From Corylus avellana (Eukaryota; Streptophyta; Magnoliopsida; Fagales; Betulaceae): a stretch of DNA of 64,000 nucleotides. Of this stretch, positions 2,921 to 49,509 are shown in pieces; within the stretch, counting starts at the first letter, position 1, and the number at the start of each line of letters is the position of its first letter. Position numbers and translations under genes: made by a program. The notes under the pieces were generated by a model. It was not told where the DNA came from. It saw nothing but the letters and a program-made list of their open reading frames with translations, and searched no databases. The stretch lies in contig NC_081546.1 in the NCBI RefSeq assembly GCF_901000735.1, positions 28,043,900 through 28,107,899 on the forward strand, written 5' to 3'.

Positions 2921-2995
2921 AGACAAGAAAGAGTTATAAAATTATTGGGCAAAGTATTGTGGCCCGGGGGATCTCAAGGCTTTCCTGGCGTGCGC

Positions 2996-22795: not shown

Positions 22796-24587
22796 TTGTT
22801 TTTTTTTCTTTATTTTTTGCATTTAGTTGTGAAAAAATATGATAAATTTCCAATTATTTTCTTAGTAAAGATCATGAAGCTTGTTATCTCTTGCTTTTAG
22901 TGCCTAGTGCTTAAAAGTCAGATCCAGTTAATGATGATGAATTTATTTAGATTTTCTAGGATAATTCCACAACAAAATCCTTAAAAATTTAGCAAATAAA
23001 TAGTGTAGATTTTGTTATCTAAATATGAAGAACTTATTAACCCTTAACATTTCTCTAATATTTATCACTTAAGATTTTGTCATCTTTACTATTTATCACT
23101 TGAGCGATCATCAATTTTTTTACTCCGTTATATCTTAATAAGGTTATATGTGACTAAAATAATGATTATAATGAAACTATTTTTATAAAATATGGAGTTC
23201 AAGATAAAGAAAAACAAAATCCAATATTTGTGATCTCAACCAAAATTCAATATCCAAAAAGAGTTGTCGTCCAAGTCAGATTGCAACAAAAGCCATTGGA
23301 AAGCTTGTGGTTATGCAACTTCTGCATTTTATAAGCTTATAAACATGGGGGTGGATCCATCCAAACCCAAATACATCTTGTTTGAGCCAATCCGGATTCC
23401 TTTCAAACCCAAATCCAAATCATCTTAATTCTCTTAGAGAGCTTTTCAAATTGCATGTAATTTAGAAAATTAATTATCGGAATCTTTATTCATTTTCTCC
23501 AACCAAAAAGAAAAAAGAAAAGAAAAAGAAAAAAAAAAAAAGAGGCTATTTTTAGAAGGCGGTGGTATTGATTATTCCGATTCAGAATTTTAGATAAGAA
23601 AGTTTTTTATGGTCTGATAAAAAGGGTAAAAAAGTCATTTTCTGAAAAAAGAAAAGAAAAAAGATAAGGTTAGATTTTCTTGCTATAACTAATGTGGAAA
23701 AGGAGTCATACACAAGTTTTTCCACTAACAGAAAGTAAGGTTTGTCTAATACCATATCCATATTTGATCTTCTTATTTAGTGATTTTGATCATACAAGAT
23801 TTACCCAATAAAGCACCGATGATGATTTTCTATAATTTTTTTTTTAATTGTAAATTTTCAAATTACGTAATTTAAGCTATTTGTAGGCATCAAAACATTT
23901 GAAAAATACTACATATTAAAAAAATGGCATGTTAGGGAGGTAACAAAAAAAAAAAAAAAAATCCTTCCAAAATACTTTTTCACTTTTGTAGAAACAATTC
24001 TTCTTCATAAAACTAAAATACAATTTTTTACTCAAAGCTTTGTACAGCATAGAGAGTTAGAAACTGATGAAAATATATTCAATTTTTAACTGGAACTAAC
24101 TACAATTTTAATAGGTAGCATTTTTCAAGCATTTCGATACTTAAAACGATTAAAATTGCGTAATTTGAGAATCTATTATTTCTTTAAAATTGTAAGGAAT
24201 CATGATCCATAAAGGACACATAAACAAACATAGAAACATCTCCAATCCAAATATTCAAAAAAATTGACAAATTTCTAATGTAAGCAAGATATTAACATAC
24301 TACTTATGGAATGCCATTTAATTATTTAATTATCAATTTAACTCTCTATATTGTATTTATGGCTAAATTTAAATGTCACATGGACATATAATACCTGTTC
24401 TATAGAAGTCACAGTGACTTAATCAAAAAAATTTTTTTTTTTCTATTTTTCTATTTTTTATTGTTAATTACATAGTTTAAAATATTAATTTAATAAATGG
24501 AATTGAAGGTTTCTTTCCAAAAATAAAAATCCTTGTCTTTTATTTTTGTGTTTTTAACTGTGAAGATGTGGGCAAATAAGAGTAATG

Positions 24588-24840
24588 TTATAAGTCTTTT
24601 TTTATGTTTCTTTTGAGTTCTTTCAAGAATGACGTGACTGTCCCCAAGGGGTAGCTCAATCGACTGTAAACCACGCCTAATGAAGTGGAAGTCACTAGTT
24701 CGAATCCCCCCTCCCCCTTCCCATGTGTGGACATGTCAAAAAAAAAAATGACATGACTATTAAAATTATCATTTGATCAAAATTTAATTATGACTAATTA
24801 TAAGTTTAATAATAATTTTAATAGCTATATTATTTTTAAA
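24588..24840. mobile_element. MITE-like element split by a SINE
   Basis: Same element as at 2780-2920 (agtaatgttataagtc ... actattaaaattatcatttgatc ... aataataattttaatagctatatt), interrupted between caagaatgacgtgact and atgacatgactattaaaatt by the SINE at 24640-24746. Confidence 0.6.
24640..24746 (+). mobile_element. tRNA-derived SINE, only in the right duplicate
   Basis: gtccccaaggggtagctcaatcgact (A-box region), tagttcgaatcc (B box), gtgtggacatgtc and an A tail. The target duplication is aatgacgtgact / aatgacatgact (one mismatch) at 24628-24639 and 24747-24758. The left duplicate has the uninterrupted site (aagaataacgtgactattaaa near 2811). Confidence 0.88.
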
Positions 24841-25017
24841 GAGATAAAAAAAAAAAAAAAACATAGAAAAAAAAACTTCTAAAATTACTTTGCATTATTG
24901 TGGCCCTGGCGATCTCAAGGCTTTCCTGGCGTGCGCCAAGTTCTGCTTTTTCACCGTCAAACGACTTTGGTCAAAGAACACCCGCCCACCTTTTACAACA
25001 TAACACTAAAACCGCGT

Positions 25018-25820
25018 CTATATATAGCGGAACATACACAAATTCTCACTTTGATTCCCTTTTCCCCTCTCTCTCGCGGGCTGTTTTTTCTCTTCTATTT
25101 TTGGTTTTATTTATTTTTTCTTCCATTTTTTGGGTTTTCTTCGTTCGTAGGGTTTCTCTGAGTTCCGAGGAAAGGCAGGTATTCGTTTTTTCGTCTCTGA
25201 TTCCTTCAAATTCCCTTTTTTTAAAAAAAATTCATGGATTCAATGATAAAAAATTTTGTGGGGATTTCGTCTTGTTTGGTGTATGAATTTGATTGTATCT
25301 GATTTCTGTTCCCGTAGATTTTGAATCCATGATCGTTAATTTCTAGGGCTTGGAATTTAAATTCGTCTCGCATTTAGGGGCTGTATATACGTATGCTAAA
25401 TGGTTGTGTTTGTTGGCCGTGAAATTGTGAGAAAAGGACTTGAATTTGGGACCTGTTTCAGGTTGGAGTTTGAATAGCGTCCACGATCTCTGTTCTTAAA
25501 TTAATGTGCGCCAACTTTCTGGTTGTTTTCTGATAGAAATAGGAAAATATCAGATATTGAAAGAGTAATGTTGTGGTTATGCTATATTTGTTATATGAAA
25601 TCGTTCCCTTCATCGTAGATACATAGTTGTATTTGGCATGATTAGTGGAGGTGTTTCTTAGATCTAAAACAATTTAAAAAAACTAGAAAATATAAAATTT
25701 GAAGTTGGGTTTTCTTTAGCTTTGCATGCAGTTTTTTTTTTTCTTCTAATTTCCTTTCTTTCGAATTCATGTTTGAATCCCTGGGTTTGGTATTCTGATA
25801 TATGCTGGATCTGATTGCAG
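25018..25820 (+). promoter_or_regulatory. SRPRa core promoter and 5' UTR intron
   Basis: A TATA box tctatatatag lies at about 25018. A pyrimidine-rich leader follows (cctctctctcgc, ttttcttcc), then a donor ggcag|gtattc at 25179 and an acceptor gattgcag at 25820, 20 bases before the ATG at 25841. Leader introns of this type are common in plant housekeeping genes. The same arrangement is kept in the truncated copy near 3070-3877. Confidence 0.7.
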
Positions 25821-25840
25821 GGTGTATACAAGTGTAGGAG

Positions 25841-28800
25841 ATGTTAGAGCAGTTACTAATATTTACCCGAGGGGGATTAATCCTCTGGACATGTAAAGAG
25901 CTTGGAAATGCTCTTAGGGGATCACCAATTGACACCTTGATCAGATCTTGTCTTTTGGAAGAACGATCTGGTGCAGCATCATACAACTATGATGCCCCGG
26001 GTGCTGCATACACGCTCAAATGGACTTTCCATAACGAGCTTGGCCTTGTATTTGTCGCTGTGTATCAGCGGATTCTCCATCTGTTGTATGTGGATGATTT
26101 GCTTCTGATGTTAAAGCGTGAGTTTTCAGAAATATATGATCCAAAACGAACGAACTATGGTGATTTTGATGAAACTTTTAGGCAACTGAGGAAGGAGGCT
26201 GAGGCTCGGGCCGAGGATTTGAAGAAATCAAAGCAGGTGGCAGGCAAGCCTCTAAATAATAGTAGGAAGCAAGGGCAGGTGCAAAATGGTGGATTTGAAG
26301 GAGTTGGTAAGAAAAAGAGTGAAGGTAATTTGGCCAATGGTGACGATGGTGATAATAGGAAAGGTCATAAATTGGAGAATGGACACTCCAATGGTTATCA
26401 TGTCGATAGTGAAAAATCTAAGGTGAATGGTGCTGCTAACGGTATAGGAGATGCAAGTTCCGATGCTGGGGCTTTTGATGTAAATAAGCTTCAGAAGCTT
26501 AGAGCTAAAGCTGGAAAGAAAACAGAAACTGTTGTTAGCAAGGGCTCCAAGGCTGAGTCCAAGGCTGAGTCAAAGAAGAAGATAACAAAGAAGAATAGAG
26601 TTTGGGATGATTCACCTCCTCAAGCAAAATTGGATTTTACAGATCATGTGGGTGAGAATGGGGACAATATAGAGGTTGTTACAGCAGATCATGGTGAAAG
26701 TATGATGGACAAGGAAGAGATCTTCAGCAGTGAAAGTGAGGCTGAAGAAGATGAGGAGGATGTGGGGAAGGACAACAAGCCTGAAACCAAGAAGAAGGGG
26801 TGGTTTTCATCAATGTTTCAAAGGTAAGTTTATTGATTTCAGTACTTGGTTATTGCTTTGTGCATTTATGATTTAAATTAGTTTGATACGTGTAATTTTG
26901 TTTACAGAACTTCGGGTCACTGTTGTAGTTTTTAGTTGTTTCAGCCATATTCAGTTGAAAGATGTTGCTTCAGTTTTTCTGCAAGATTTTTTTATTGAAA
27001 AACAAATATTTAGTGGTTCCTAGGCCAGTATCCTCATCCAGGAAATTGTTTTCTGACAATTCAATGTCAAATGTTGGGCAATAAATTCTTTTTTTTTTTT
27101 TTTCATCTGTTAATGTACTTCTGTTGAAATCAACTTATTTTGCAATTCAGATTGTGCTCCCTGTACTGTAAATATTGTTTGCAAGTGTGCCTAAACAATC
27201 CTGGAGTCAGAGTACTTCTTTTGGGGTGGGTTGGGAGTTTACCTATTTTCCTTCTTTCCTCTCATTCTTGCTATTACTTACCATTAATAATAGCAATAAT
27301 AATAATAACAACAGTTATAATAAGTCTCTTTAAATTGTTGAATTCATTTTTGGCTCTATTTATTTATTTTTCAAATCCTGGAGTTTACAAGAAGGCTCTG
27401 TTATGCTTTATCTTATTGATCCCTTAAAGTTTCCTCCTTGCTATTGTATATTGGAATTATTCATGGATCAACTGTCAACTACAGGTCTTAAGGGTAGAAA
27501 TGGCTATACTATTTTACTATTGCATTACCATTTCCATTTTTGTAGAAAAATTTATTGAAATTGTTGGATTCTTGATTCATTCTTTATTCACTTTCCTGCT
27601 CTCAGTATTGCGGGCAAAGCAAATTTGGAGAGGTCAGACCTGGAACCGGCTTTGAAAGCTCTCAAGGATAGGCTTATGACCAAGAATGTGGTATGTTTCT
27701 CTATCTGCTTCAATGATCTACCTATGTTTCATATCTATTCTATCAGTACTTCTCAATCATGCTGAGACTGCTACTTAAAGCTCCATGCTATGATATTCAT
27801 AGGCCGAGGAGATAGCTGAGAAACTTTGTGAATCAGTCGCAGCAAGTCTTGAAGGGAAAAAATTGGCTTCATTCACAAGGGTATCTTCAACAGTGCAGGT
27901 TTGGATTTCATCCCTTACTCCAATATTTAATCTTAACAATCTTAACCGAGTCGTTTCTCATTATTTCTTACTTTGTAATAAGATTAAGACCAAGACATGA
28001 AACATGACTGCAGGCAGCAATGGAAGAAGCTCTTGTACGTATCTTAACTCCTAGGCGCTCTATTGACATATTGAGGGACGTGCATGCCGCCAAAGAACAG
28101 AGGAAGCCATATGTTGTTGTTTTTGTTGGCGTGAATGGAGTTGGGAAATCTACTAATCTAGCCAAGGTAAGTTGTCATTAGTTTTTTATATGTAAATGAA
28201 GTTGGGAAACTTGTCAAAAATAAAAAGTAAATGGCGTATGTTGAGGTGAGAAATTAACCAATCTTGCTAAGGTTTAGCTTTTCCCATAGATTTCTGTAGC
28301 AGTGGATGCATGTGTGTGTGTGTGTGAGTTTTATATACATTCGTCCTATGACCACACAGGTTAACTGGTTTAGCTTTTGATCAGATAGTCACTCTATAAA
28401 ATAACTTTGCAGGTTGCCTACTGGCTTCAGCAGCATAAGGTCAGTGTCATGATGGCTGCTTGTGACACATTCCGATCAGGAGCTGTTGAGCAGCTACGGA
28501 CTCATGCACGAAGACTCCAGGTATGATATTTGATGTTATGGCATTTGGTTACCAGGATCTCTGGCTTCTTTACTTGGTGAGAAATGTTCATGCAATAAAA
28601 TGAATACTTACTACAATCTGGATGGTGATATCTGACTTGTTATCTTTTTCTCTTGTAAGATCCCTATATTTGAGAAGGGCTATGAAAAAGATCCTGCAGT
28701 TGTAGCAAAGGAAGCAATCCAGGAGGCAACACGCAATGGTTCTGATGTTGTTCTTGTTGATACAGCTGGTCGAATGCAGGTATCACGCATAGCTAGTATT

Positions 28801-32586: not shown

Positions 32587-32749
32587 TGTCAATTTTAATT
32601 TAAGGAAAATGACATTCTTACCACATCAAGTTTGGAGAAGTTTTTTTTTTTTTTTTTTCTTAATTTTATTTTTAAGGAATGTTGATTTCATTCATAATGA
32701 TGAAAATAGAGCATTTTGCTATAAAACAACAACATCACTAATGAGGAGG

Positions 32750-33175
32750 AATTTCTTCCATCCAAATCTTATCAATGATATGTTTGAAGGTGGCTCTAGC
32801 TAACTCATGTGCAGCTAAATTAGCATCTCTACTAATTTGTCAAATCTCCCAGCTATGCAACAAGTCTAGCACCCCACTTATGTTTGCTACTAGTTGTCCA
32901 ATTTTACTCCAATTGTGGCCCATGAATCTCACAACTTTCAATGCTTGAAGAGCATTCCCTTCTAGGTAATTTTTTTTTTTTAACCCTTGGTTTCAATTAA
33001 TTCAACTACATGGAAAGCTGCCAAAGCCTCTGCTGCTACCAGTTCTAACCTCCCAAATTTGGTTAGGCTACGTGCTACAAGTATATGCTCCTCATGACCC
33101 CTCACAACAATACCTATGCGTATGCTACCACTGAGTTAATCCATTGCCGCATTTCAATTCACTTTTTGGAAACCT
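32750..33175 (-). pseudogene. RNase H-like (RVT_3) retroelement relic, copy A
   Basis: The minus strand reads, with breaks, RIGIVVRGHEEHILVARS, LELVAAEALAAFHVVELIE, then YLEGNALQALKVV, a stop after LHSWEI, and ISRDANLAAHELARATFKH. This is the C-terminal RNase H module of plant LINE polyproteins. It has at least one stop and an inserted A/T run. No reverse transcriptase is nearby. Confidence 0.7.
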
Positions 33176-35366
33176 TATGGAGGAGCTTGCTAACTTTTTT
33201 GATCCTCTACTTTATAGTTCAAATTAATTAGATTTTATAGATTTATTGATGTTAACTTTTAATGATATGACAGTTTGTATACCATAATATTGAACAAAAT
33301 AAAATTTTGACCGTAAAATTGATTATCGCTATTTTACCTATTCATCTTACTTAATTTTAAATGACATGACACCACACCATTAGATGTAACAAAATAAAAT
33401 TTGAAATTTACTCAATGACCTCTAACGTGGAGTAGATCGCTACTTTATTGCGTTGATGATCATCCGAGTTTGATCATTTTGCCGTATTAGACTTCTATTG
33501 TATTAGAACTAATTCAAACCGAGTAATGTTATGCATTCTACTTTTATCTCACTTTACTGATGTGATACTGCTAATAAATCCTTAGATTAAATGCAATAGA
33601 AGTCTAACACTACAAAATGATCATCAAACTTGGATGATCATCAAAACAATACAAATAGCGATTTACTCCAACAAAATAATGTTATGCATGCACCCCACTT
33701 TTATTCCACTTTGTTGATGTGGTATTCTCAATCAGTTTTTTTTTTTTTTTTGCTTATCAGTAATAACAATATAATTTATAGCATTTCTCATTCTTGGTAT
33801 GACAATGTCTTTCGTAATTTATTAGGAAAAAAAAAAAAGGTCTATGGATTAAAAATAAACCAGAACATTTAGTTTCACCCACAGAGAATCTAATCTCTCT
33901 TTCTCTATGCCCAAGTGTCAGCTGGCGTTGCGACCCTGCCGACAACAAAGTGCATGATGGAGAGCCTCCTAGCCACACCCACAAACCCAATCACTACCGC
34001 CCACTCAAGAACCACCCAAAATTCAAACTTTCAAAATCCCAAAACCAAATTCTCCGAGAGGTGTGATACAGTCATAACTTAAACTCAACTTTGGCCAAAT
34101 TTTTAGACCAAATTTCTCTCTCTCTCTCTAGTTTAAGGCTCCCTCTCTCCTCCACAAGCAAGGTTTTTTTTTTTTTTTTTTTAAGTTAAAAGAAAAGTTG
34201 GGCCAAAGTTAGGTTTAAATTGTGCCTTTATCATTTTCCATTCTCCAATAACCCTTGGATTTTTTTTTATTTAGCTAATGCCGCATAACCTAAAGAGAAA
34301 TGATAAGCTTCATTCTCCTAACCATTTTTTTTAAATGAATTCAAATTCATCATTGAATTTGTAGGTTTACATATGGGTCCTATATATTCAATGGTAGATT
34401 TTTAAAAAAATATATGAATGGAGATAGTTAAGAGATGGTTAAGAGAATGAGGCATAGCATTTCTCTAATTCAAAACTTGTATGCGAGGAAAAATGAGAAA
34501 ACTAAATTGGAGATCTAGGAGCCGCTCACAATTGGTTTAAACGTCTAATATAAGCAAAATTAAGGCCCAATAAAAAACACTTTTGATACTATTGGACATT
34601 TGGGATACCCAAGTAGCTAGTAAGCAAGTTATCACCAAGTTTTGCAAGCAAATGATACTTGTCCTATTTTTCTAATACTTTTTTTGTTAAATCCATAGCT
34701 AAGACAGGGAGATAAGAAATGATAATACAGCCTTCATTGCCCCTCAAAATGGGTTTCAAAACAAACATATTTATTTGTCATTCTTTTTTTAAATGGGTTT
34801 CATCAATTATCAACATAACAGTATGATCTTGTTCATCATCAGATTCTGCTTGAATCCAATATAATTCTAATTAAAATTGCACTCATTGAAATTATGACAT
34901 ATGTCTCTTGTATCCTAAAATTGGAACCGGCCAAACCCTTAATCATCATACTTACAATAATTGAACGAGTTCAAATTTAAATATGCTATGGTAGCATTGA
35001 ATATGTTATTATACAGAGATTGGCTATATATATTATTGTTCAACTTAGATTTTATAGCATTTAATGGTGTATATAGTACCTAGGTTGTCAAATCATTTAA
35101 ATTTTTCAAATGATGTAATACTAATATCATATAAACTGCTAATAAATTTTATTTCAACCATAAAATGATTCCTCTCAAATGGTTAAAGAAGACAACTCAT
35201 ATTCCAAATTTTTGCGGGGAAAGTCCAACGTTTAGTAGTAACACTTTTTCTCTATTTTGATTCGGATAAAAATTTCCTCCAAACAAGTTCTGAGGAAATT
35301 TGTGTCCTTTTGATTGCCTAAATATCACTTAAATTTTCCTTGAGAAAGAAACAATTGTTTAATGCA

Positions 35367-35457
35367 ATAATTCATGCCTCATGAAACAGAGGTTACTAGT
35401 TCGAATCTCCCCTCCCTTGTATGGACATGTAAAAAAAAAAAAAAAAAAAAAAAAAAG
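35367..35457 (+). mobile_element. 5'-truncated SINE relic
   Basis: catgcctcatgaaacagaggttactagttcgaatctcc, then gtatggacatgt and a long A tail. The A-box half is degraded. The counterpart in copy B is at 39262-39330. Confidence 0.65.
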
Positions 35458-35765
35458 TGCCAAAAAGTAAAAGGTATTTTTGAGTAATATAAGCAATTTA
35501 CTTGAAACAAGATAATAATCTGTTTTCTTTTTGAGAAATAGATAATAATCTGTTTTCAAGTAAATAATTATGTGATTCTGCAGTTTTGCCTTTTACACGT
35601 GGCACTGATCATGAACATCCTCGTATACTCCGAACCAATCAATAGCCGAGTGGAGTTCCAAAACCATACCTAATTCTATAAAAGAACCAACACCCACCCT
35701 TATTAATTTCTCCCTCATTTTTCCTCATCAGTAGTAATCAATACTTTCAGAGTGTGTTTGAATCA

Positions 35766-36472
35766 ATGGCTTCTCTGAAAACTATTATTCCAATTTTGAC
35801 CCTCTTTGTTTTTTTGCTGGCCTTCTCTGAAGGCAGAGAGTTTCTGGTTGGAGGCAAGGAAAATTCATGGACTAGTCCGACTTCTTCAGATTCTCTCATT
35901 CTGTGGGCTGAGATAAACCGATTCATTGTTGGCGATTTTCTCAGTAATATCTCATCTCACTCCTCTCTCTTTAACTATCACTTTTTCATAATTTTAACTC
36001 CATGTGGATTTTGATTTACTTGCACTTTCATGAACAACCATTTATCAACTGAGTTTTATTCCTTTGTTTCCAAGTTTTTCTTTTCCTGCACTGGGAATTA
36101 TTGAGAATATGAAAATCCAGTTCATGCATGAAAATGTATTCCTTTGCAGCAAAAAAATTCAAAAGAAAAAAAAAAAAAAAAAAAAAAGAAAGAAATGGGT
36201 TTTCATTTTCTAATGCACTTCAACCTGGTCAATATTTTTTTTTTTTTGTAAGTAATACTATTTAGTAGAGTTATATATGACAAGTAAAACTCGGCCTTTA
36301 AATCAGTAATAACTTGTAAAATGAAAAATTAATAGCGGATTTCTACTGTTACATCATCCTAATCGAATGATAATAGCTTTCAGTTTATTAAATAACATTT
36401 TTTTTTTTCTTTTCATAACGTTTATCTTGATATCCAACTTTTGTTCCATCCTAACAACAATTTTCCTCATTT
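35766..36472 (+). CDS. Early nodulin-like protein, exon 1 only (rest lost in assembly gap)
   Basis: Exon 1 (35766-35943, donor CTCA|gtaata) encodes 59 aa: signal peptide MASLKTIIPILTLFVFLLAF, cleavage after FSEG, then REFLVGGKENSWTSPTSS and a segment ending FIVGDFL. The intron follows and matches that of the gene at 39614 until the N run at 36473, about 16 bases short of where exon 2 should begin. Exon 2 is therefore missing from the assembly, not shown to be deleted. Exon 1 differs from the next gene by only a few bases. It may be a real paralogue or the other allele. Confidence 0.8.
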
Positions 36473-36572
36473 NNNNNNNNNNNNNNNNNNNNNNNNNNNN
36501 NNNNNNNNNNNNNNNNNNNNNNNNNNNNNNNNNNNNNNNNNNNNNNNNNNNNNNNNNNNNNNNNNNNNNNNN
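36473..36572. other. Assembly gap of 100 N
   Basis: Exactly 100 N, the usual placeholder for a gap of unknown size. It separates the two copies of the duplicated block. Confidence 0.99.
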
Positions 36573-36739
36573 TGTCAATTTTAATTTAAGGAAAATGACA
36601 TTCTTACCACATCAAGTTTGGAGAAGTTTTTTTTTTTTTTTTTTCTTAATTTTATTTTTAAGGAATGTTGATTTCATTCATAATGATGAAAATAGAGCAT
36701 TTTGCTATAAAACAACAACATCACTAATGAGGAGGAATT

Positions 36740-37172
36740 TCTTCCATCCAAATCTTATCAATGATATGTTTGAAGGTGGCTCTAGCTAACTCATGTGCAG
36801 CTAAATTAGCATCTCTACTAATTTGTCAAATCTCCCAGCTATGCAACAAGTCTAGCACCCCACTTATGTTTGCTACTAGTTGTCCAATTTTACTCCAATT
36901 GTGACCCATGAATCTCACAACTTTCAATGCTTGAAGAGCATTCCCTTCTAGGTAATTTTTTTTTTTAACCCTTGGTTTCAATTAATTCAGCTACATGGAA
37001 AGCTGCCAAAGCCTCTGCTGCTACCAGTTCTAACCTCCCAAATTTGGTTTGGCTACGTGCTACAAGTATATGCTCCTCATGACCCCTCACAACAATACCT
37101 ATGCGTATGCTACCAGTGAGTTAATCCATTGCCGCATTTCAATTCACTTTTTGGAAACCTTATGGAGGAGCT
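36740..37172 (-). pseudogene. RNase H-like (RVT_3) retroelement relic, copy B
   Basis: Near-identical to 32750-33175, with the same stop after LHSWEI and the same ISRDANLAAHELARATF stretch, so the damage predates the duplication or allele split. Confidence 0.7.
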
Positions 37173-39261
37173 TGCTAACTTTTTTGATCCTCTACTTTAT
37201 AGTTCAAATTAATTAGATTTTATAGATTTATTGATGTTAACTTTTAATGATATAATAGTTTGTATACCATTATATGCAACAAAATAAAATTTTGACCGTA
37301 AAATTGATTATCGCTATTTTACCTATTCATCTTACTTAATTTTAAATGACATGACACCACACCATTAGATGTAACAAAATAAAATTTGAAATTTACTCAA
37401 TGGCCTCGAATGTGGAGTAGATCGCTACTTTATTGCGATGATGATCATCCGAGTTTGATCATTTTGCAGTATTAGACTTCCATTGTATTAGAACTAATTC
37501 AAACTAAGTAATGTTATGCATTCCACTTTTATCTCACTTTACTGATGTGATACTGCTAATAAATCCTTAGATTAAATGCAATAGAAGTCTAACACTACAA
37601 AATGATCATCAAACTTGGATGATCATCAAAACAATACAAATAGCGATTTACTCCAACAAAATAATGTTATGCATGCACCCCACTTTTATTCCACTTTGTT
37701 GATGTGGTATTCTCAATCAGTTTTTTTTTTTTTTTTTGCTTATCAGTAATAACAATATAATTTATAGCATTTCTCATTCTTGGTATGACAATGTCTTTCG
37801 TAATTTATTAGGAAAAAAAAAAGGTCTATGGATTAAAAATAAACCAGAACATTTAGTTTCACCCACAGAGAATCTAATCTCTCTTTCTCCTCGACTATGC
37901 CCAAGTGTCAGCTGGTGTTGCGACCCTGCCGACAACAAAGTGCATGATGGAGAGCCTCCTAGCCACACCCACAAACCCAATCACTACCGCCCACTCAAGA
38001 ACCACCCAAAATTCAAACTTTCAAAATCCCAAAACCAAGTTCTCCAAGAGGTGTGATACAGCCATAACTTAAACCTAACTTTGACCAAACTTCTATACCA
38101 AATTAAGTTGAGTTTAAGTTGTGCCTTTATCATTTTCCATTCTCCAGTAACCCTTGGATTTTTTTTACTTAGCTAATGCAGCATAACCTAAAGAGAAATG
38201 ATAACCTTCATTCTTCTAACCATTTTTTATTTAAATGAATTCAAATTCATTATTGAATTTGTAGGTTTACATATGGGTCCTATATATTCAATGGTAGATT
38301 TGAAAAGAAAATATGTATGGAGATAGTTGAGAGATGGTTAAGAGAATGAGGCATAGCATTTCTCTAATTGTATGCGAGGAAAAATGAGAAAACTAAATTG
38401 GAGATCTAGGAGCCGCTCACGATTGGTTTAAACATCTAATATAAGCAAAATTAAGGCCCAATAAAAACACTTTTGATACTGTTGGACATTTGGGATACCC
38501 AAGTAGCAGCTAGTAAGCAAGTTATCACCAAGTTTTGCAAGCAAATGATACTTGTCCTATTTTTCTAGTACTTATTTTGTTAAATCCATAGCTAAGATAG
38601 GGAGATAAGAAATGACAATACAGCCTTCATGCCCCTCAAAATCGGTTTCAAAACAAACATATTTATTTGTCACTCTTACTTTTTTTAAATGGCTTTCATC
38701 AATTATCAACATAACAGCATGATCTTGTTCATCATCAGATTCTGCTTGAATCCAATTCTAATTAAAATTGCACTCATTGAAATTATGACATATGTCTCTT
38801 GTATCCTAAAATTGGAACCGGCCAAACCCTTAATCATCATACTTACAATAATTGAACAAGTTCAAATTTAAATATGCTATGGTAGCATTGAATATGTTAT
38901 AAAGAGATTGGCTATATATATTATTGTTCAGCTTAGATTTTATAGCCTTTAATGGTGTATATAGTACCTAGGTTGTCAAATCATTTAAATTTTTTAAATG
39001 ATGTAATAGTAATATCATATAAACTGCTAATAAACTTTATTTCAACCGTAAAATGATTCCTCTCAAATGGTTAAAGAAGACAACTCATATTCCTAATTTT
39101 TGTGGGGAAAGTCCAACGTTTAGTAGTAACACTTTTTCTTTATTTTGATTTGGATAAAAATTTCTTCCAAACAAGTTCGGAGAAAATTTGTGTCCTTTTG
39201 ATTGCCTAAATATCACTTAAATTTTCCTTGAGAAAGAAACAATTGTTTAATGCAATAATTC

Positions 39262-39330
39262 ATGCCTCATGAAGCGAATGTCACTAGTTCAAATCCCCTC
39301 TCTCTTGTCTGGACATGTCAAAAATAAAAA
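39262..39330 (+). mobile_element. 5'-truncated SINE relic, copy B
   Basis: catgcctcatgaagcgaatgtcactagttcaaatcccc, then gtctggacatgtcaaaaa. It corresponds to 35367-35457 with a shorter tail. Confidence 0.6.
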
Positions 39331-39613
39331 GTGCCAAAAAATAAAGGGTATTTTGAGTAATATAAGCAATTTACTTGAAACAAGATAATAATCTGTTTTC
39401 AAGTAAATAATTATGTGATTCTGCAGTTTTGTCTTTTACACGTGGCACTGATCATGAACATCATATCCTCGTATACTCCGAACCAATCAATAGCCGAGTG
39501 GAGTTCCAAAACCAAACCTAATTCTATAAAAGAACCAACACCCACCCTTATTAATTTCTCCCTCATTTTTCCTCATCAGTAGTAATCAATACTTTCAGAG
39601 TGTGTTTGAATCA

Positions 39614-40713
39614 ATGGCTTCTCTGAAAACTATTATTCCAATTTGGACCCTCTTTGTCTTTTTGCTTGCCTTCTCTGAAGGCAGAGAGTTTCTGGTTGGA
39701 GGCAAGCAAAATTCATGGACTAGTCCGACTTCTTCAGATTCTCTCATTCTGTGGGCTGAGATAAACCGATTCATTGTTGGCGATTTTCTCAGTAATATCT
39801 CATCTCACTCCTCTCTCTTTAACTATCACTTTTTCATAATTTTAACTCCATGTGGGTTTTGATTTACTTGCACTTTCATGAACAACCATTTATCAACTGA
39901 GTTTTATTCCTTTGTTTCCAAGTTTTTCTTTTCCTGCACTGGGAATTATTGAGAATATGAAAATCCAGTTCATGCATGAAAATGTATTCTTTTGCAGCAA
40001 ACAAATTGAAAAGAAAAAAAAGAAATGGGTTTTCATTTTCTAATGCACTTCATCCCGGTCAATTTTTTTTTTTTGTAAGTAATACTATTTAGTAGATTTA
40101 TATATAACAAGTAAAAATAGTCCTTTAGATCCGTAATAACTTGTAAAATGAAAAATTAATAGTGGATTTGTACTGTTACGTCATCCTAATCGAACGATAA
40201 TAGCTTGCAGGTTATTAAATAACTTTTTTTTTTTTTTCTTTTCATAACGTTTATCTTGATGTCCAACTTTTTCTCCATCCTAACAACAATTTTCCTCATT
40301 TTGTGGACTTGTCAGTCTTTGAATACAATCCCAACACAGATTCAGTACTGCAAGTGACAATGGAGGAGTACGAGAGCTGCAACAAATCTAATCCAATCAA
40401 AGAATACAAGGATCCTAAAGCAAAGGTTGAGCTGGACAGGTCAGGACCCTTCTATTTCATCAGTAAAGCTGAGGGGAGTTGTGAGAAGGGCCAGAAGCTG
40501 ATTGTGGTCGTGTTATCAAATGGACACCATTTGCCAAAGCATTCGTCTCCACCGCCAATGCCGGAATCTGCTCCGGTAACACCGGCTCCGGAACCGGCAC
40601 CGGAAGCTCCAGCACCAGCACCAGCACCAAACAGTAGTGGTGCTCTGAGGGTTGGGTTTATTGGTGTTGTTGTGGGAATATTAGTGGGTTTAGTGGAAAT
40701 GTGGTTCTTTTGA
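39614..40713 (+). CDS. Early nodulin-like protein, AGP/GPI type
   Basis: Exons 39614-39791 and 40316-40713 (phase-1 GT-AG intron) encode 191 aa. The signal peptide MASLKTIIPIWTLFVFLLAF precedes REFLVGGKQNSW. Exon 2 encodes FEYNPNTDSVLQV, YESCNKSNPIKEY, ELDRSGPFYFISKAEGSC, then a Pro/Ala-rich stretch (TPAPEPAPEAPAPAPAP) suited to arabinogalactan glycosylation, and a hydrophobic C terminus FIGVVVGILVGLVEMWFF expected to direct GPI anchoring. The copper ligands are absent: TDS for the first His, YFIS for Cys, GSC for the second His. It is the most complete plus-strand ENODL in the window. The likely location is the outer face of the plasma membrane. Confidence 0.92.
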
Positions 40714-41354
40714 GGAACAAAGAGTATATGTCAAGTTTTATTTCAACATTATTATGTTTCTGTGAATCTTGTAGAAGAGGATGTGAACTTTCCTCAGTCA
40801 TGTTATGAAGCTTAGTTGCAGTATTATAATTTGTTTGGCTTGCTATGAAATGTTTCATTTTTGGTTGATGATTGAGTATTTGTTTCATTTCAATTCCCTC
40901 AAAAATTGATTTAGAATTGTCATCATGTAACATTTTTAATAAATAAAAATTAGGGCAATCAAGTAACTAAAGCAATCCTCACTCATTGATGAAAAATTTG
41001 TAATTACTTCTTTATACATATAACCATGATCTCTCTAAGAGAAAACTATTTCTAATGGAAACAAAAAATGCGATTTTAAACCAAGTCGCAGAACACAGAT
41101 TGATTGGGATTGCGTTTTTTTCGATTTTGCTAAACGGCACATTTTAAAATCACACTGTTTAAAATCGCAAACTCAATCAATGATAAATTGTTAAAATGGT
41201 TACATGATAAATTTCTTATCTCAACAGACTTGTGATAATAATCTTTCTTTTAATCAATATGATCTATTATATCAACTACTTAAATCTCTTATCTCTTATC
41301 TCAACAGACTGTTATCTCCATATCTTCCTTCTCATCCTTCTTTTGAATTACAAA
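40714..41354. other. 3' flank of ENODL gene up to the CACTA element
   Basis: Contains the likely 3' UTR. A small inverted repeat lies at about 41068-41172 (atgcgattttaaacc mirrored by gtttaaaatcgcaaa). No gene is seen. Confidence 0.5.
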
Positions 41355-41374
41355 CACTACAAAAATTATGATCA

Positions 41375-42015
41375 TTAGCGGCGACTCCAAGTTGCCGCTA
41401 ATAAGGAAAAAGTTGCCGCTATTCACAAATACCGGCGACTCGCGGCCGCTATTTGGTGGTTGGTAGTAAGTGGACGGTGAAGCTAAATACCGGCGACTTT
41501 CAAAGTTGCCGCTATTTGTATGTCATTAGCGGCGACTTAGAGTTGCCGCTAATACTTTTTTTTTTGCCGGAAAAAATGGTTCAAAATGGTTCTAAGGTTG
41601 CCGCTATTGTATATCATTAGCGGCAACCTTTATGTTGCCGCTATTTATATGTCATTAGCGGCGACATAAAGTTGCCGCTAATGATATAAGAAAATTAAAA
41701 AAATAAAAATAAAAAAAGTCAATAGCGGCAACTTGGAGTTGCCGCTATTGTTCTATCATTAGCGGCAACCCATAGTTGCCGCTATTTATCCAGTATTACC
41801 GGCGACTTATAGTTGCTGCTATTTGTAATAAGAAAATTAAAAAAAAAAATTGGAAAAGGTCAATAGCGGCAACTTGAAGTTGCCGCTATTCCTCTATCAT
41901 TAGCGGCAATCTAAAGTTGCCGCTATTTGTCTGTAATTAGCGGCAACTTAGATGTTGCCGCTAATGAATTGAAAAATAGAAACTCAATAGCGGCGACCTA
42001 AGGGTCGCCGCTATT
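41375..42015. repeat. Left subterminal hairpin array of the CACTA element
   Basis: Short palindromic units such as tcattagcggcgacttagagttgccgctaat recur about every 40-60 bp with variable loops. In CACTA elements such subterminal repeats bind the element's DNA-binding protein. Units are imperfect, inverted within themselves and irregularly spaced. Confidence 0.9.
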
Positions 42016-43162
42016 GAAAAAAAAAAAAAGAAAAAAAAAAAAGAGCACATATATATATATATATATATATATGCAAACACTACACACTTGAACCAGGAAA
42101 GAAAAAACTCCAAAATAACATTATTCAAAAGCAAAAATACAAGAAAAATACATTACTTAAAAAGGGTCATGTTCAAATAGCTATATACCTCCTCATGGAG
42201 TAGAAGAGTGCAACTTTCTATTTAATCTTAGTCAATCAGCAATCAAGATTCAATCAATTTTAAGCAACATAGAAGCATGAAAGGAGGAGGTAATAAAAGT
42301 ATTTGTAACTACAATACAATCTTATCAGTTTGTAATTTGATGAAAAAAATAATTTTACAAGCCAAGTTTTATCTGTATCTTTAAAAATAATATCCATAAC
42401 CTACATTACACACACCACCACTTAGAACCGACAATTAAAAGTGAAAAGGAGTAATTTATCATGATTTATTACCTAAATATTGTTCTACATTTGACAGGGG
42501 TAGGTAGACAGAAGTTTCTTTGGCAAAGGTTACATGACTTTGGCTAAAGATTTGATTGCCATGGTAATACACAATCCAAAATATAAAATTACTTAAGCTT
42601 TTCAATTATATACCAAGGTAGATATTAACTGCTAAATCACAAGGCCTGTCAACTAGTTTATAATAGACCAAGAAAGAGATGGGAGTAGACGGTGAGGGGT
42701 TAGTCACGTAACTGATGTTCAGATGATATCAAGCATATAATTTGAAGAAAACATGCAGGTAACAACTTGAATGTACAAATTCATTTAGCAGCCTTTTGAA
42801 AATCCCAAAAACATAGTCAGCTGAACATGCACTGACCAACTTTTGATTCTCTTAGTTTGGTAAAGGCAAGCATGCTGTTTGAAAGTTAATAATTTTGGCA
42901 AAATTGCATTGCGCTAAAAACAAATCTTAACTGAGCTCAAAGCATATAGCGCAATGAATGAGAGTGGCAACATTTGGTCCCCCACCAGAAATCTCCTAAC
43001 AGACCCTTTATCAGGCCAATTCTTAGTCTAGAAAACTCTCAAATCAGTATCTCCGTCAATATTTGCATTCCCTACAACCATCCATTTTTAATAAATGCAA
43101 CCCTCAAGTATGCATCTCATGATATAATTGCATGAAAAGGAAAAGAATGGGAAGTGTTCCAC

Positions 43163-43848
43163 CTCCGGTTTAAGATCTCGATGCACCACACCCTGAAGAT
43201 GACAAAATGCTACCACATTCAGTATCTGTACCATGACAGCCTTTGCCTCATCTTCTGAGTATTTTCCACCCCTACAAAAGTAATAGAATAACTAGTTGAC
43301 GACTACAGTGATGCACATCTGAAAGCCCAAGAGAAAAAACCTACAAAAATAAAGAAATAAAATAAATGACTACCTTGAAAGTATTCTGTCTAGAAGCTCC
43401 CCTCCTTCACATAACCTGAAATATTCACAATAAGAATTAAATTCCATAAGGTCGAAGGTCTAGTACAATGCAGTGAGCAATCATTCCAGGGACTTCTATG
43501 TTATAAAATCATATTTAGTCAGCCACAATTACAGATTCCATATGCTTGTATTTAAGAGAGGCACAAGAATATTGGTAAATAAATAAATAAATTGTTATTA
43601 AGCCCTCATGAACCATCCATAGAAACATAAATTCATCATTCATGTCAACCAGTTATTATTTATATGAGCTGCAGTAAAACATTTGATGTCAAAAAGCAGA
43701 GTTTGTTCCAAGCTTACTCCATTACTATGTAGACATTATCGTGGTCTTCAAATGCATCATAGAATTGTACTAGATTGTTATGTCCTGTCAAGGCTCGCAA
43801 TATTTTCACCTCCCTTCGCACATCTTCAATCGCAATTGCTGATGTCAT
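43163..43848 (-). pseudogene. Captured fragment of a CDPK-related kinase (CRK)
   Basis: Three exons on the minus strand: 43848-43718, 43415-43374 and 43271-43163, with correct GT-AG sites and phases, 94 codons without a stop. They encode [40 protein letters not shown] and VMELCEGGELLDRILSR, then [17 protein letters not shown] and [14 protein letters not shown]. That spans kinase subdomains III to VIb, including the alpha-C Glu (REV) and the catalytic HRDLK loop. The glycine-rich loop, VAVK lysine, DFG motif and degenerate EF hands are missing. It cannot be an active kinase. The retained introns show capture from genomic DNA, not from mRNA. It is the 3'-most of the four captured pieces. Confidence 0.88.
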
Positions 43849-44116
43849 CTGGCAACAAGGATTAGAACAGCATGAAAAAATAACAATGAACAACCCATAA
43901 ATGAGCACTATAAAATTTTGTTAAATATTTCAAATATCCAGTTATCCACCAACTCCCAAAAGTTTACTAAACTGTAAAAAAAAAGACCATATGAATAAAA
44001 TTTTGGAAGCTAACCAAGATGTAAAGAACCAAAGCAGCCCAAAAGGTTATAAGAAGCCCTTTACTTATCCACTAAAGAAAAGGTCATTAGAAATTCTAAA
44101 AGACATGATTTATTAC

Positions 44117-44463
44117 CTAAATCTTTCTTAGCTTGTTCTGTTTTCCCTGTTCTTGCAATTTCATATATCACTCATGAGCTTTCTGTTTCTCTATCTCCTC
44201 TCTACATGATACACAAAAGTTGATAATAAATACAATTGCTTTACATGCAAATCTGTTCAAAGTATAAAGAAGTATGTACTCCACAGAAGATTTGTGTCAT
44301 AGGACTGAAAAAGAATCAAAGAAAACCACAAAGATATATTTAAAATAAAAAATAAAAAATATGGACTCCCACTTCGAAATAGAACATAAATATGTCCTCT
44401 TGAAGAACAAAAGTGACCATTAACAAACCTTTCACGCCTAGAAAGTTCAGTTGTTTTCCCCAA
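44117..44463 (-). pseudogene. Captured fragment of a PDAP1 / 28-kDa heat- and acid-stable phosphoprotein gene
   Basis: Two exons on the minus strand. Exon 44463-44429 encodes LGKTTELSRRER. Exon 44201-44117 continues EEIEKQKAHE, then TGA, then YMKLQEQ. A one-base deletion in the GGGG of GGGAAAACAG shifts the frame, and in the shifted frame it reads KTEQAKKDL. The RRER-EEIEKQ-AHERYM-LQEQGKTEQAKKDL pattern is the conserved core of plant PDAP1 homologues. The splice sites (tgcag|TTG, AAAG|gttt, gtag|AGAG, TTAG|gtaa) are intact. The parent protein is a small, charged, casein-kinase-substrate phosphoprotein. This piece is broken as a gene but keeps a frame up to the TGA. Confidence 0.8.
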
Positions 44464-45085
44464 CTGCACAGGAAGAATACTGACAGCAACTTCTCTTCAC
44501 CTAACATACCATCCATTTTTTTTTCAAAAAGGTTTTAAGAGTATACATGAATATAAGAGATATTTCACTTATTAGAGATTTGATAATTAATACAAAATCC
44601 TAACGATAAGAACAACATTAAATTGCAATTTCAAAACCTTTGTACAGTTTGGAAGAAAGTGAAGTTCAAAAAAAAAAAAAAAAATTGAAGAGCAAAGCAT
44701 ATATACAAGCGACTTGATGACAGTTGCTGCTAGCTGTAAGCAATAAAAAAAAGACACCTGGAGATCTGTACAGTTAAGAAGATGACTTGTCCTATAATTG
44801 AGTTACATGTAGCTGTCCTCAGCAGAACAACAGCTCTACATACATCGCAACTGTGTGACAAAGTCAAAAAGCCTACAAATTATGAATGTGTAAAGATATA
44901 TATATATGTACACACACGAAAACTGGTTATAATTGCTAATGAGAGATCTGAATTGAAAATTGCTAAGCCTATTGATAGCATCAAAACTTGAGTAGCACAT
45001 CCCGGCCATAGACTAGGAAAAGCTATAGGGCACATTTATTTCCTTTACACAATCATTGTATGGGATTACAATTTCAAAACAGTAC

Positions 45086-45335
45086 CTGAGTTTTCTTATA
45101 GGTATGAATGTGATAACAGAGCCAATACATTCTATAGACCACTTCAAGGCAAGAGTCCTCTGCCAAAATGAAATTCATAAATCCTAATTAACTTGATGCT
45201 GCATGTTGTGGCATAAAGAACCATAAAGGAAACAAAGAAGCAGTAAAACTATTTTAGGGGTAGCGCATTTACTCGTATTTCTTCCATCAGAGAACATTTT
45301 CAAATCCCCACCAGCAGAAATGCTCGGCCAGCACC
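45086..45335 (-). pseudogene. Captured fragment of a 3-hydroxyisobutyryl-CoA hydrolase-like gene
   Basis: Two exons on the minus strand, 45335-45273 and 45159-45086, encode SAGGDLKMFSDGRNT, then KDSCLEVVYRMYWLCYHIHT and YKKTQ. This is the oxyanion-hole region (AGGD) of the crotonase-fold hydrolases of valine catabolism (CHY1-like, mitochondrial type in plants). One T is missing in the presumed GCATTTTCTGCT, so the parental GAGRAF frame and the SAGGD frame are offset. The splice sites are good. The catalytic half and transit peptide are absent, so no enzyme is made. Confidence 0.8.
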
Positions 45336-46149
45336 CTGAGTAAGATACAAGACGACCAACATAACAAGCTTTAGTGAAGGAAAATCAACAGTTCATGGAG
45401 ATAAAGAGTCCAAAAAATTGGATCAACCACAAGGCTAAGTTTTCAGAAAGGTAAAAAAAGGATATGATTAACTATTCAAACAAATTGTAGTTTAATATAC
45501 AAATTACAGATTTCCATCTCAAATCGACAGGGTAATTGGCCCTTCCCTAACGAAAGGCAATTGAATCAATAACATATTTTGCCTCTTAATTTAACTGTTG
45601 TATAATGGCATTTAAATGACTAATAAAGCTTGAGCAATTGGCATGCCATGCTAAGATTAGATAACTGCATTGGGACAGCCACTTCTACGAGGAACTTCGT
45701 ATAATATAATCTATGCATGTCATATTAATCAAATAAAAATTTCAAGTGTTTGGGCAACCATCTAACAATGGTTAATGGAAATCTTTTCACATACATTTTG
45801 AGATAAAAACTTGCTCATATACAACAACCCAATTGAAACAGAAGAATTTCTTTAAATTTATAGGTCTTTGTTGGAAATCAAAATGCTGTTAAATACTATG
45901 GCATACACAAATAATCATTCTTTCATAACATTAAATTTGTTAGAATTCTAACCATTATTTTTAACAAAATGATTCAGATTTTACCACCTCAACAGTCAGA
46001 GTTCTAAACGATCCTCAAATTTTTCTGTACATAATGGCTAAGATTCTAAGAACTAGAGAAAACGTAGAGGATCCTGATCCATCAATAACATAAAATAAAC
46101 AAAAATGACCAGATAATAGTAACTAGTAAATAAGAAAATTTATCCTTAC

Positions 46150-46652
46150 TGGAAGAAATGGCTGGATTGCAGAGAGTCCCATCCTCCCTTTTCAGCAATA
46201 CCCTCACTCTCCCTCTTTGCATGAAGTCGCGCGGATAAGCCTTATCTAGCTGCCACCAACACCCTCGAACATTTTCAAGACCCATAAAAAATTACAAAAA
46301 ACTAAAACTAAAACAAAAACCAAAAGCATCAACCCGTAGATCCATCAGCAACACTCTCAAATACTTTCGAGACCCATTAACAACATTCAAAAAAATTTGA
46401 AAAAGAAAAAACAAGAAGCACCAATCCTTAGAAAAGCGCAAAATGAAATGAACAAAAACAAAAAGCACGAACCTCAATAGCATTAGGGAGCTTGAGATGA
46501 GCGCAGCAGTCGGCGATCTCGGTGAACGTGGGATTTTCGCATGCGTTGGCGAGGCTTATCCGCCTCCCTTCCGCCACCGTTTTCTTCGAGTTTATGTAAA
46601 TTGGGTAGAACACTATCCACCTCTTTATATTCTCTATTTCTCCTCCATCCAT
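46150..46652 (-). pseudogene. Captured 5' part of an SRP19 gene
   Basis: Exon 1 (46652-46473, 60 codons) begins with ATG and encodes MDGGEIENIKRWIVFYPIYI, NSKKTVAEGRRISLANACEN and HLKLPNAIE. Exon 2 (46249-46150, 33 codons plus one base) encodes LDKAYPRDFMQRGRVRVLLK and REDGTLCNPAIS. These match the N-terminal two thirds of plant SRP19, which binds SRP RNA helices 6 and 8 and primes SRP54 binding. The basic C-terminal exons are not found. Sequence upstream to about 47040 may include the parental promoter. No stop or frameshift lies in the captured part. It could still yield a product if transcribed. Confidence 0.9.
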
Positions 46653-47439
46653 GTCTCTGATTCAAAAACCCTAACCAAAACAGGCATAAAATTCACAGAT
46701 CAAGATACAAAACTATACAAATATAGTATATAAGACTCGTGATTCAGGCAAATCCAATCTTCCGTGTGTAAGGCGGAAGCCCCCAAAAATGGGTGATCAA
46801 AAATCGAATCACTATGCGTATCTTGGTGGCCATTACTTTTTGGCTGACTCCTCACCCAGTTCTATTGATCAGAAGTATCCAGCAGCGCCGCGCCGGTGTA
46901 GAATTATATTATAGGGGCCGATTAAGGCTCTCCTTATCCCCTTCCCTTTTCTTCCCCCCTGACCGTGCGTGTGGGACTTTGGGGTTAGGGATTTGGATCA
47001 AACAAATATGGTCTGAACTTTTCGGAAAACATCAAAAATGATCTGAAAATTTCAGAATATTAGCGCCAATTTCAGATATCCCGCCACTGGATGGCGCTTA
47101 TTTTTCGCACTCAATAGGGGCGACCTTAGTCGCCCCTAATGAGCCTCAAAAATTTTTTTTTAACAATAGGGGCGACTAATGAGCCTCAAAATTTTTTTTT
47201 TTAAAAAAAAAATTATACTTATAATTTATAATTTTTATTTATTTTATTTATTTTTGTTTTTCTTTATTTTCTCCTGTAATATGTTTTTATTGTTATAATA
47301 TTAACTAATAATTTCCGTTTAATAAAGATCATTAAGTTGATATTTATCTTATAATTAATTATAAGATCAATACAAAATCCAAAGATAATATAAGATCAAT
47401 ATAACTAATACACTAAGATAATATAAAAAGCTTATAGTT

Positions 47440-48110
47440 TAATTGAATGTTCGATTGAACCTTCAATTGTATTCAGTTTGATCGATCAATTGATCTTATC
47501 ACTATCAATCTAACTAATTCATTAGGATCAATCAGATGTTTGATCGATCAATTGATTCCATTACGATCAATCGAACTAATTCACTATGATCGATCGGATT
47601 TTTGATCGAATGTTTGATCCTATCACGATTAATCGAACTAATTCACTATGATAGATCAGATGTTTGATCGATCAATTGATCCTATCACAATAAATCGAAC
47701 TAATTCACTACGATCGATCGGATGTTCGATCAAACATTTGATCTTATCACGATCAATCGAACTAATTCATTAGGATCGATCGGATGTTTGATCGATCATT
47801 TAAACATATCACGATCAATCAAACTAATTCATTTAGATCGATTGGATGTTTGATCGAACATTTGATATTATCATGATCAATCGAACTAATTCATTAGGAT
47901 CAATCGGATGTTCAATCAATCATTTGTTCTTATCATGATCAATCGAACTAATTCATTAGGATCAATCGGATGTTCGATCAATCATTTGTTCTTATCACGA
48001 TCAATCGAACTAATTCACCTTGATCGATCGATCATTTGATCCTATCACGATCAATTGAATTAATTCACCAAGATCGGTCGATTGTTCGATCAAACATTTA
48101 AATAAGAATA
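47440..48110. repeat. 62-bp minisatellite inside the CACTA element
   Basis: The motif aatcgaactaattcactatgatcgatcggatgtttgatcgatcatttgatcctatcacgatc recurs with a 62-bp period (aactaattc at 47512, 47574, 47636 and so on), about ten diverged copies. Units are rich in gatcgatc, which is self-complementary. No coding potential. Confidence 0.9.
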
Positions 48111-48369
48111 AGAAATAGAAAACTTCAATAATAATTAATACGAGAATTTGTTCTCTTTAAAAGGAAAAAATAAATATTGATTTTTTTATAAAAAATAAGA
48201 ATAGAAAATAGAAAAAAATTCACCAATAATTAATATAAAAGAAATAATGACATATTATTGGAGGTGAATTTTTGGTAAATAATCTTTTCTATTATATATG
48301 TAAGGTCAATAGCATTGCCCCAATATTTATAATTTAATTAATTAATTAATTTTTTTATTTTTTTTTTTT

Positions 48370-49470
48370 TCGGTGGTAAATAGCGGCAAATACTAAGGTT
48401 GCCACTATTGAGGGATCACTAGCGGCAACTTTTTAAAGTTGCCGCTATTAGGCACCAAATAGTGGCAATTTTATGTCGCCGCTAATAGGCCAAGTATTTT
48501 TTTTATTTGTTTTTTGTCTGGACGAATAGCGGCAACTACCAAAGTTGCCGCTATTGATCTCCAATAGCGGCAACTTTTAAAGTTGCCGCTATTAGGCCCT
48601 TAATAGCGGCCAGTTAATGTTGCCGCTACTAGGCCAAGTATTTTTTTTATTTGTTTTTTGTCTGGACGATTAGCAGCAACTACCAAAGTTGCCGCTATTG
48701 ATCCTCCAATAGCGGCAACTTTTAGAGTTGCCGCTATTAGGCACTTAATAGCGGCAACATTATGTTGCCACTACTAGGCCAAGTATTTTTTTATTTGTTT
48801 TTTGTCTGGACGATTAGCGGCAACTACTAAAGTTGCCGCTATTGATCCTCCAATAGCTGCAACTTTTAAAGTTACCGCTATTAGGCCCTTAATAGCGGCA
48901 ACAATATGTTGCCGCTACTAGGCTAAGTATTTTTTTATTTGTTTTTTGTCTGGACGATTAGCGGCAACTACAAAGTTGCCGCTATTAAGTGCCTAATAGC
49001 GGCAACTTTTAAAGTGGCCGCTATTAGGACCTCCAATAGCGGCAACTTTATGTCGCCGCTAATAGGCCAAGTATTTTTTTATTTGTTTTTTGTCTGGACG
49101 ATTAGCGGCAACTACCAAAGTTGCCGCTATTGATCCTCCAATAGCGGCAACTTTTGAAGTTGCCGCTGTTGCGCTCATAATAGCGGCAATGGATTGTTGC
49201 CACTAATTGTGTTTAAATAGCGGCAACTCAAGTTGCCGCTATTGAGTGCCTAACAGCGGCAACTTGGTAATGTTGCCGCTAATGGGTAGTAAATAGCGGC
49301 AACACAGGTCGCCGCTATTAGTATTGCTGCTAAATATCAACTATTTTGGTATTTAGCGTCCGCTATTAGCGGCAACAATAAAGTTGCCGCTAATGGCCTC
49401 TCATTAGCGGCGACTTTTAAAAGTCGCCGCTAATGACCCCTCATTAGCGGCAACTTTGGGGTCGCCGCTA
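48370..49470. repeat. Right subterminal hairpin array with ~145-bp tandem units
   Basis: Same AGCGGCAAC/GTTGCCGCT hairpins as at the left end but longer. The sequence aagtattttttta...tttgtctggacga recurs near 48492, 48638, 48780, 48926 and 49069, defining about five tandem units of roughly 145 bp, each holding three hairpins. Confidence 0.9.
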
Positions 49471-49509
49471 ATAATTTGGTTGCTAATGACCAAATTTCTT
49501 GTAGTGAAA

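Follow-up and report, generated by a model that had tools for sequence, protein, structure and literature searches.

How does a single transposon come to carry pieces of four unrelated host genes, all reading in one direction, and did it collect them itself? We explored this question for positions 41355-49506 of a 64,000-nucleotide window of the hazelnut (Corylus avellana) genome, described in a first-pass annotation as a CACTA element that had captured four nuclear genes. The stretch is a non-autonomous CACTA transposon (hereafter B1) with four host-gene fragments aboard. The best overall explanation, which we regard as very probable, is that the cargo was built stepwise, with blocks partly exchanged between CACTA families and captures achieved by repair. 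The four pieces of the annotation are real, but probably not all of them were gathered by the element itself: the SRP19 and 3-hydroxyisobutyryl-CoA hydrolase-like (HIBCH) pieces would have been joined in a different CACTA family and reached this one together, as a single block. In the following, B2 denotes a copy of B1 on C5, and other relatives are labelled A1, A2 or by L-numbers.

B1 begins with CACTACAAAAATT at 41355 and ends with TTTCTTGTAGTG at 49506. Terminal inverted repeats (TIRs) starting CACTA, a 3-bp target-site duplication (TSD) and subterminal repeats in both orientations, as expected for the CACTA superfamily, were all found:

41352..41354, unstranded, left TSD AAA, partner at 49507-49509
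41355..41386, plus strand, left TIR, imperfect, starting CACTACAA
41376..42013, unstranded, subterminal repeats of the left end, TAGCGGCGAC/GTTGCCGCTA occurring in either orientation, tandem period 141 bp
47115..47176, unstranded, TAGGGGCGAC motifs that mark the other CACTA family
47476..48099, unstranded, 62-bp tandem repeats, kin to arrays of the other CACTA family
48381..49473, unstranded, right subterminal repeats, tandem period 144 bp
49475..49506, minus strand, right TIR, imperfect, terminating in TTGTAGTG
49507..49509, unstranded, right TSD AAA

The complete ends, the AAA/AAA duplication and the subterminal hairpins on both sides (seen here as subterminal inverted repeats) were thus all recovered as first annotated. 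In AT-rich DNA, AAA/AAA is weak evidence for a TSD by itself, and stronger evidence comes from B2 (C5:7875096-7883750, 8655 bp), which has the ends and cargo of B1 and its own TSD, TCA/TCA. This second insertion, obtained from the search for further copies that the first-pass annotation had suggested, also speaks against its caveat that the two ends might belong to different elements, since the same pair bounds B2. No transposase was among the Pfam matches of B1 in six frames, and the element is therefore considered non-autonomous; the three plus-strand frames gave no Pfam match at all at E 0.1. The array at 47476-48099 is satellite-like, and A1 holds related arrays, partly inverted.

All four fragments lie on the minus strand and retain exons and GT-AG introns, as first described. 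Exon boundaries were placed by hand from GT-AG sites and relatives:

42462..42478, plus strand, 17-bp duplicated target, copy 1, beside the CRK insert
42481..44105, minus strand, CDPK-related kinase (CRK) segment, exons 43848-43718, 43415-43374 and 43271-43163, donor C1:28358910-28360528
44106..44122, plus strand, 17-bp duplicated target, copy 2
44106..44477, minus strand, PP28/PDAP1 fragment, exons 44463-44429 and 44201-44117
44473..44477, unstranded, junction of a ~670-bp deletion relative to the C5 copy
44473..47831, minus strand, block common to elements of the other family (TAGGGGCGAC ends), right limit approximate, inside satellite
44931..44967, unstranded, 37 bp of filler where the HIBCH capture begins on the left
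44968..45411, minus strand, HIBCH-like segment, exons 45335-45273 (1-bp deletion) and 45159-45086, donor locus C5:18953858
45412..46977, minus strand, SRP19 segment with 325 bp 5' of the ATG, exon 1 (46652-46473), intron 1, exon 2 (46249-46150) and partial intron 2, donor C1:8791457-8793021

Pfam matches on this strand comprised two SRP19 exons (3.5e-13 and 2e-5), Pkinase (5.3e-8, 3.4e-6) and PP28 (9.4e-6). The top protein match of the SRP19 piece, among the best 120 of 379, is from Corylus avellana at 98%, and the first kinase exon is nearest to CDPK-related kinases, the named ones being mostly CRK 5. The HIBCH piece by itself is weak in Pfam (ECH_2, E 0.074) and nearest to 3-hydroxyisobutyryl-CoA hydrolase-like proteins. 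The exons of its donor locus reach 3e-18 for ECH_2 and, against the NCBIfam 3-hydroxyisobutyryl-CoA hydrolase model, 1.2e-11, which is under the model cut-off, as expected for a fragment; the HIBCH stretch had no matches in the PDB. The PP28 assignment is based on Pfam and on the protein model P0271.

The search for intact parent genes proposed in the first-pass annotation succeeded for SRP19, CRK and HIBCH and found no close parent for PP28 among the candidates scored. These three pieces match their donor loci as DNA at ~97-99% identity, introns included, which excludes chance resemblance and agrees with the annotated capture from genomic DNA. The SRP19 donor (C1:8.79 Mb) is 97.1% identical across the 1566-bp segment, and its coding start agrees with that of P0001, a C. 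avellana protein of 137 aa. The CRK donor (C1:28.36 Mb) differs at 28 of 1619 sites; three adjoining stretches of this gene, with no CACTACAA within, together correspond to a CRK protein from Morella over residues 1-594. At the HIBCH donor (C5:18.95 Mb, from 18953858 on) the following exon is retained, as judged by eye and Pfam, and six element copies differ from it at 5-8 of 445-446 sites. The three donors are mutually unlinked, so the cargo order does not reflect local synteny in the C. avellana genome. Across four element copies and the donor, the SRP19 segment has 41 gap-free variable columns, 29 of which separate all copies from the donor; together with identical segment limits, this points to one SRP19 capture. 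Aligning fragments to parents, suggested earlier for dating, did yield distances, but these overlap (K 0.011-0.027) and give no ordering by age. The order of capture therefore rests on intermediates.

Such intermediates exist in both families, with copy counts that are lower bounds (40 of 165 candidates scored in one search for relatives, 40 of 42 in another). Comparison of B1 with B2 shows 6 differences in 2798 sites of the left arms, which carry CRK and PP28. B2 has four PP28 exons and B1 two, the missing pair lying within the ~670 bp deleted from B1; B1 is the deleted copy, because an element at C4:24.36 Mb is continuous across this stretch. Host-gene DNA between TIRs, donors elsewhere for three of the four pieces and more than one insertion (C5 and C6, differing TSDs) place the element among Pack-CACTA transposons. 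The second family has TAGGGGCGAC ends and is represented by A1 (C3:15974500-15992093) and A2 (C6, one end at 18038715); what it has in common with the family of B1 and B2 is the block 44473-47831 together with satellite repeats of a related type. In the stretches examined, the TAGGGGCGAC motif occurs in L048, L050, L051 and L058 and in neither L049 nor L052.

The CRK capture can be read from a 17-bp word, TGATTTATTACCTAAAT. Three elements, L036 (C3), L037 (C2) and L038 (C4), contain PP28 and some left arm without CRK and have the word once (with a substitution in L036). In B1, B2 and the C4:24.36 Mb element, which holds CRK and PP28, matches B2 259-3619 and stops near the block start (B2 3600), it occurs twice, flanking CRK. 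Since the word is also absent from the CRK donor, CRK was inserted at one point with duplication of a 17-bp target. By eye, one side of the junction has 2 bp of microhomology. Separately, L041-L044 (C6:6.555, C7:11.958, C2:29.703 and C1:33.323 Mb) represent one common internal-deletion derivative, which joins B2 619-1352 (585-1352 in L042) at ~93% to 2575-2847 at >99%, an odd contrast in identity.

The other two captures are visible in the second family. L049-L052 contain neither HIBCH nor SRP19; L058 (C6:4.487 Mb) contains an 866-bp HIBCH stretch, 98.15% identical to the donor, and the 37-bp filler, with SRP19 absent; A1 and A2 contain both pieces, and L048 has HIBCH and a partial SRP19 segment followed by an inner deletion. 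L058 retains HIBCH sequence that is absent from the SRP19-bearing copies, and its state thus precedes the SRP19 step, in which the stretch corresponding to L058 2000-3157 was replaced. Pfam searches of the replaced stretch in L050 gave nothing on either strand. Plus-frame Pfam searches of L058 and L059, where the gene lies on the minus strand, gave no match either. In L058, ~312 bp (2417-2728) separate the HIBCH piece from the point at which element sequence resumes. Within the block, B1 differs from A2 at 4 of 2505 sites, with a common 3-bp deletion, and from A1 at 17 of 2502. A transfer from the second family into that of B1 would be the direction suggested by the TAGGGGCGAC signature inside the block and by the HIBCH- and SRP19-free series being of the second type.

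We propose a model, read from these relatives, in which elements carrying PP28 and still devoid of CRK received the 1.6-kb CRK piece at a single point, with 17 bp of target duplicated and nothing lost. In the second family, the HIBCH piece displaced ~0.5 kb and left a 37-bp filler, after which the 1566-bp SRP19 piece displaced ~1.15 kb, some of it HIBCH sequence. The HIBCH-SRP19 block then moved into the CRK-PP28 lineage, the chimera reached its two sites on C5 and C6 with differing duplications, and the window copy finally lost ~670 bp. Movement would be by cut-and-paste with CACTA transposase supplied in trans, and the captures would represent repair of breaks or gaps within the element, using host genes as templates. 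Gap filling with microhomology is reported for animal Pack-TIRs (PMC8277862).

Several observations weigh against this model. Repair as the mechanism is deduced from the junctions; the two ends of A1 are mutually inverted repeats, but its flanks mismatch (GCA and ATG) and its outer limits are provisional; no second end was found for A2, a copy with two assembly gaps, and further gaps lie in several copies, one right at the HIBCH junction of L058. For PP28 no close parent was found among the 40 of 165 candidates scored, the nearest gene (C3:33.57 Mb) matching one exon at 87%. Within the block, B1 and B2 differ at 8 of 2505 sites, which makes B1 nearer to A2 than to B2 and, given their close left arms, requires gene conversion or another round of exchange. 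An exact loss of CRK from L036-L038, through recombination between the 17-bp repeats, is conceivable; this is disfavoured by the PP28 distances, which are greater from B2 to L036-L038 (17/865, 22/857 and 21/853) than from B2 to the C4 element with CRK (10/866). A rather unlikely alternative to repair is the fusion model put forward for Pack-TYPE elements, Pack-CACTA among them (PMC8903248, PMC13317346), in which two related elements flanking a host gene drop their inner ends and move as a unit. It could account for the joining of the two families, but for CRK it needs a breakpoint overlap of ~20 bp, and random breakpoint pairs in ~3 kb fell within 0-22 bp of overlap in only 0.7% of draws; it also has to contend with the filler at the HIBCH junction and with CRK junctions that show no inner-end sequence. 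We favour break or gap repair because of the duplicated target, the filler, the microhomology and the replaced stretches. That the cargo is instead what remains of a former gene cluster, or is an artefact of assembly, is extremely improbable: gaps in or near several copies would fit an artefact, but the SRP19, CRK and HIBCH genes are unlinked, and identical cargo between identical ends recurs at a second site.

Two related elements, A2 and B2, underlie public C. avellana protein models. P0241, annotated as 'signal recognition particle 19 kDa protein-like isoform X2' (173 aa), fits A2 and joins SRP19 exons 1-2, HIBCH exons A-B and an extra captured exon in one frame. The extra exon lies within a segment matching C6:1577781-1578616 (99%). 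That segment had by eye been labelled a gamma-tubulin-complex (GCP-like) fragment and considered as a fifth cargo of B1, but was rejected as such: Pfam and NCBIfam gave no match, and the place it matches corresponds to second-family sequence that lies beyond the transferred block. P0271 (168 aa) fits B2 and joins PP28 across the inter-family junction between block and PP28. Numbered RefSeq isoforms are usually backed by transcript evidence. For the window copy, no protein model was among the best 120 of 379 SRP19 matches or the 34 of 34 in a second listing. HIBCH exon A is one nucleotide longer in the donor and L058 (64 nt) than in B1, B2, A1 and A2 (63 nt), and L048 has the same deletion; the 63-nt form continues the SRP19 frame, whereas the 64-nt form does not. 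Spliced by hand, SRP19-HIBCH-PP28 exons 3-4 of B2 give 180 open codons, while the equivalent in B1 is stopped at 161; compared with B2, PP28 exon 44201-44117 of B1 lacks 1 bp and is interrupted by an in-frame TGA, a stop that B2 does not have.

It is tempting to ask whether the cargo is under selection, the co-directional, in-frame exons 3' of the SRP19 5' region forming a new chimeric gene, perhaps only in relatives of B1. We consider this unlikely. P0241, an annotated isoform uniting SRP19, HIBCH and a third captured exon, would fit, as would the frame-fixing deletion, present in 5/5 SRP19-bearing copies found and in neither L058 nor the donor. Yet SRP19 exon 2 is interrupted by a stop in A1 and PP28 by one in the window copy, restoration of frame is fairly likely by chance for a deletion in a T run, and the differences from the donor, at 4/280 sites within SRP19 exons (plus a 3-bp deletion in exon 1) and 30/1280 outside them, are too few to show constraint. 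Nor does orientation bear out the selection for co-directional cargo suggested earlier, since four of four fragments fall on one strand with a chance probability of 0.125, and a Pfam match to FCF1 at L016 3143-3229 (C3:15986042-15986128), within the provisional bounds of A1, lies on the strand opposite SRP19. The same bounds contain a weak fascin match, under the cut-off, on the SRP19 strand. An internal promoter is plausible from sequence, as the SRP19 piece brings 325 bp 5' of the ATG and related copies are annotated as spliced chimeras. Because these public models are chimeric, we suggest that transcription may start within the 5' region acquired with SRP19, the transcripts then being spliced across the same-strand exons. 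A further, doubtful but conceivable extension is that the two families act as an assembly line, in which exons are patched in singly, blocks are swapped and a frame-restoring deletion yields a transcribed chimera of SRP19, HIBCH and a third exon, with promoter and start codon from the cargo.

Gene-carrying CACTA elements such as Tgm-Express1, Pack-CACTA and Tpn1 are already known; the interest of this case lies in its resolved assembly and second-hand cargo. Tgm-Express1, a soybean element in the wp allele of F3H, likewise has CACTA ends and is described as holding intron and exon fragments of five unrelated genes, which appear in its larger cDNAs as cassette exons with GT-AG sites (PMC1947982). 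In contrast to B1, it carries other genes and is located within an intron of its host gene, where the F3H promoter drives its transcription (PMC1947982), while B1 is an intergenic insertion with a readable capture order and a block moved between families. Like Pack-CACTA and other Pack-TYPE elements, B1 is non-autonomous and TIR-bounded with host coding DNA inside; in maize, Pack-CACTA are reported to hold the most distinct loci, and a Pack-PIF cluster shows sequential inner additions (PMC8903248). The authors of that study explain Pack-CACTA capture as neighbour fusion, whereas the CRK piece of B1 fits a repaired break better. Tpn1 elements of morning glory are also CACTA transposons, mostly non-autonomous, with host genic DNA in their inner part; chimeric transcripts are reported, and their subterminal tandem repeats are 122 and 104 bp (PMC5105172), compared with periods of 141 and 144 bp in B1, in another host. 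Maize Helitrons, as described in PMC3288121, similarly gained several gene fragments in successive steps inferred from related copies, but they are not TIR elements. In the portions of the literature covered, we found no work linking Corylus avellana, a chimeric gene and a transposon; two papers mention Corylus and CACTA once each.

Elsewhere in the window, positions 1-4023 and 21921-25966 form a ~4-kb duplication in three pieces (92-97% identity). The latter copy runs into a candidate SRP receptor alpha gene (by eye), whose 5' part is thus duplicated upstream. Tandem copies with phytocyanin-like genes (by eye) at 32587-36472 and 36573-40301 match in two pieces (92% and 97.5%) and are split by a 100-base assembly gap (36473-36572), so that their number may be an assembly issue. 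At 16229-17564, a 306-bp unit is repeated 4.4 times (93% match) in an open frame resembling TIR-NBS-LRR leucine-rich repeats (by eye).

With donors and elements with and without each piece present in one assembly, three captures are legible to a few bases in hazelnut. Gene uptake by cut-and-paste transposons is debated, and this case makes repair and neighbour fusion testable against each other, while the annotated chimeras offer a concrete test of exon shuffling. Passage of loaded blocks between families would, moreover, let cargo grow faster than single captures.

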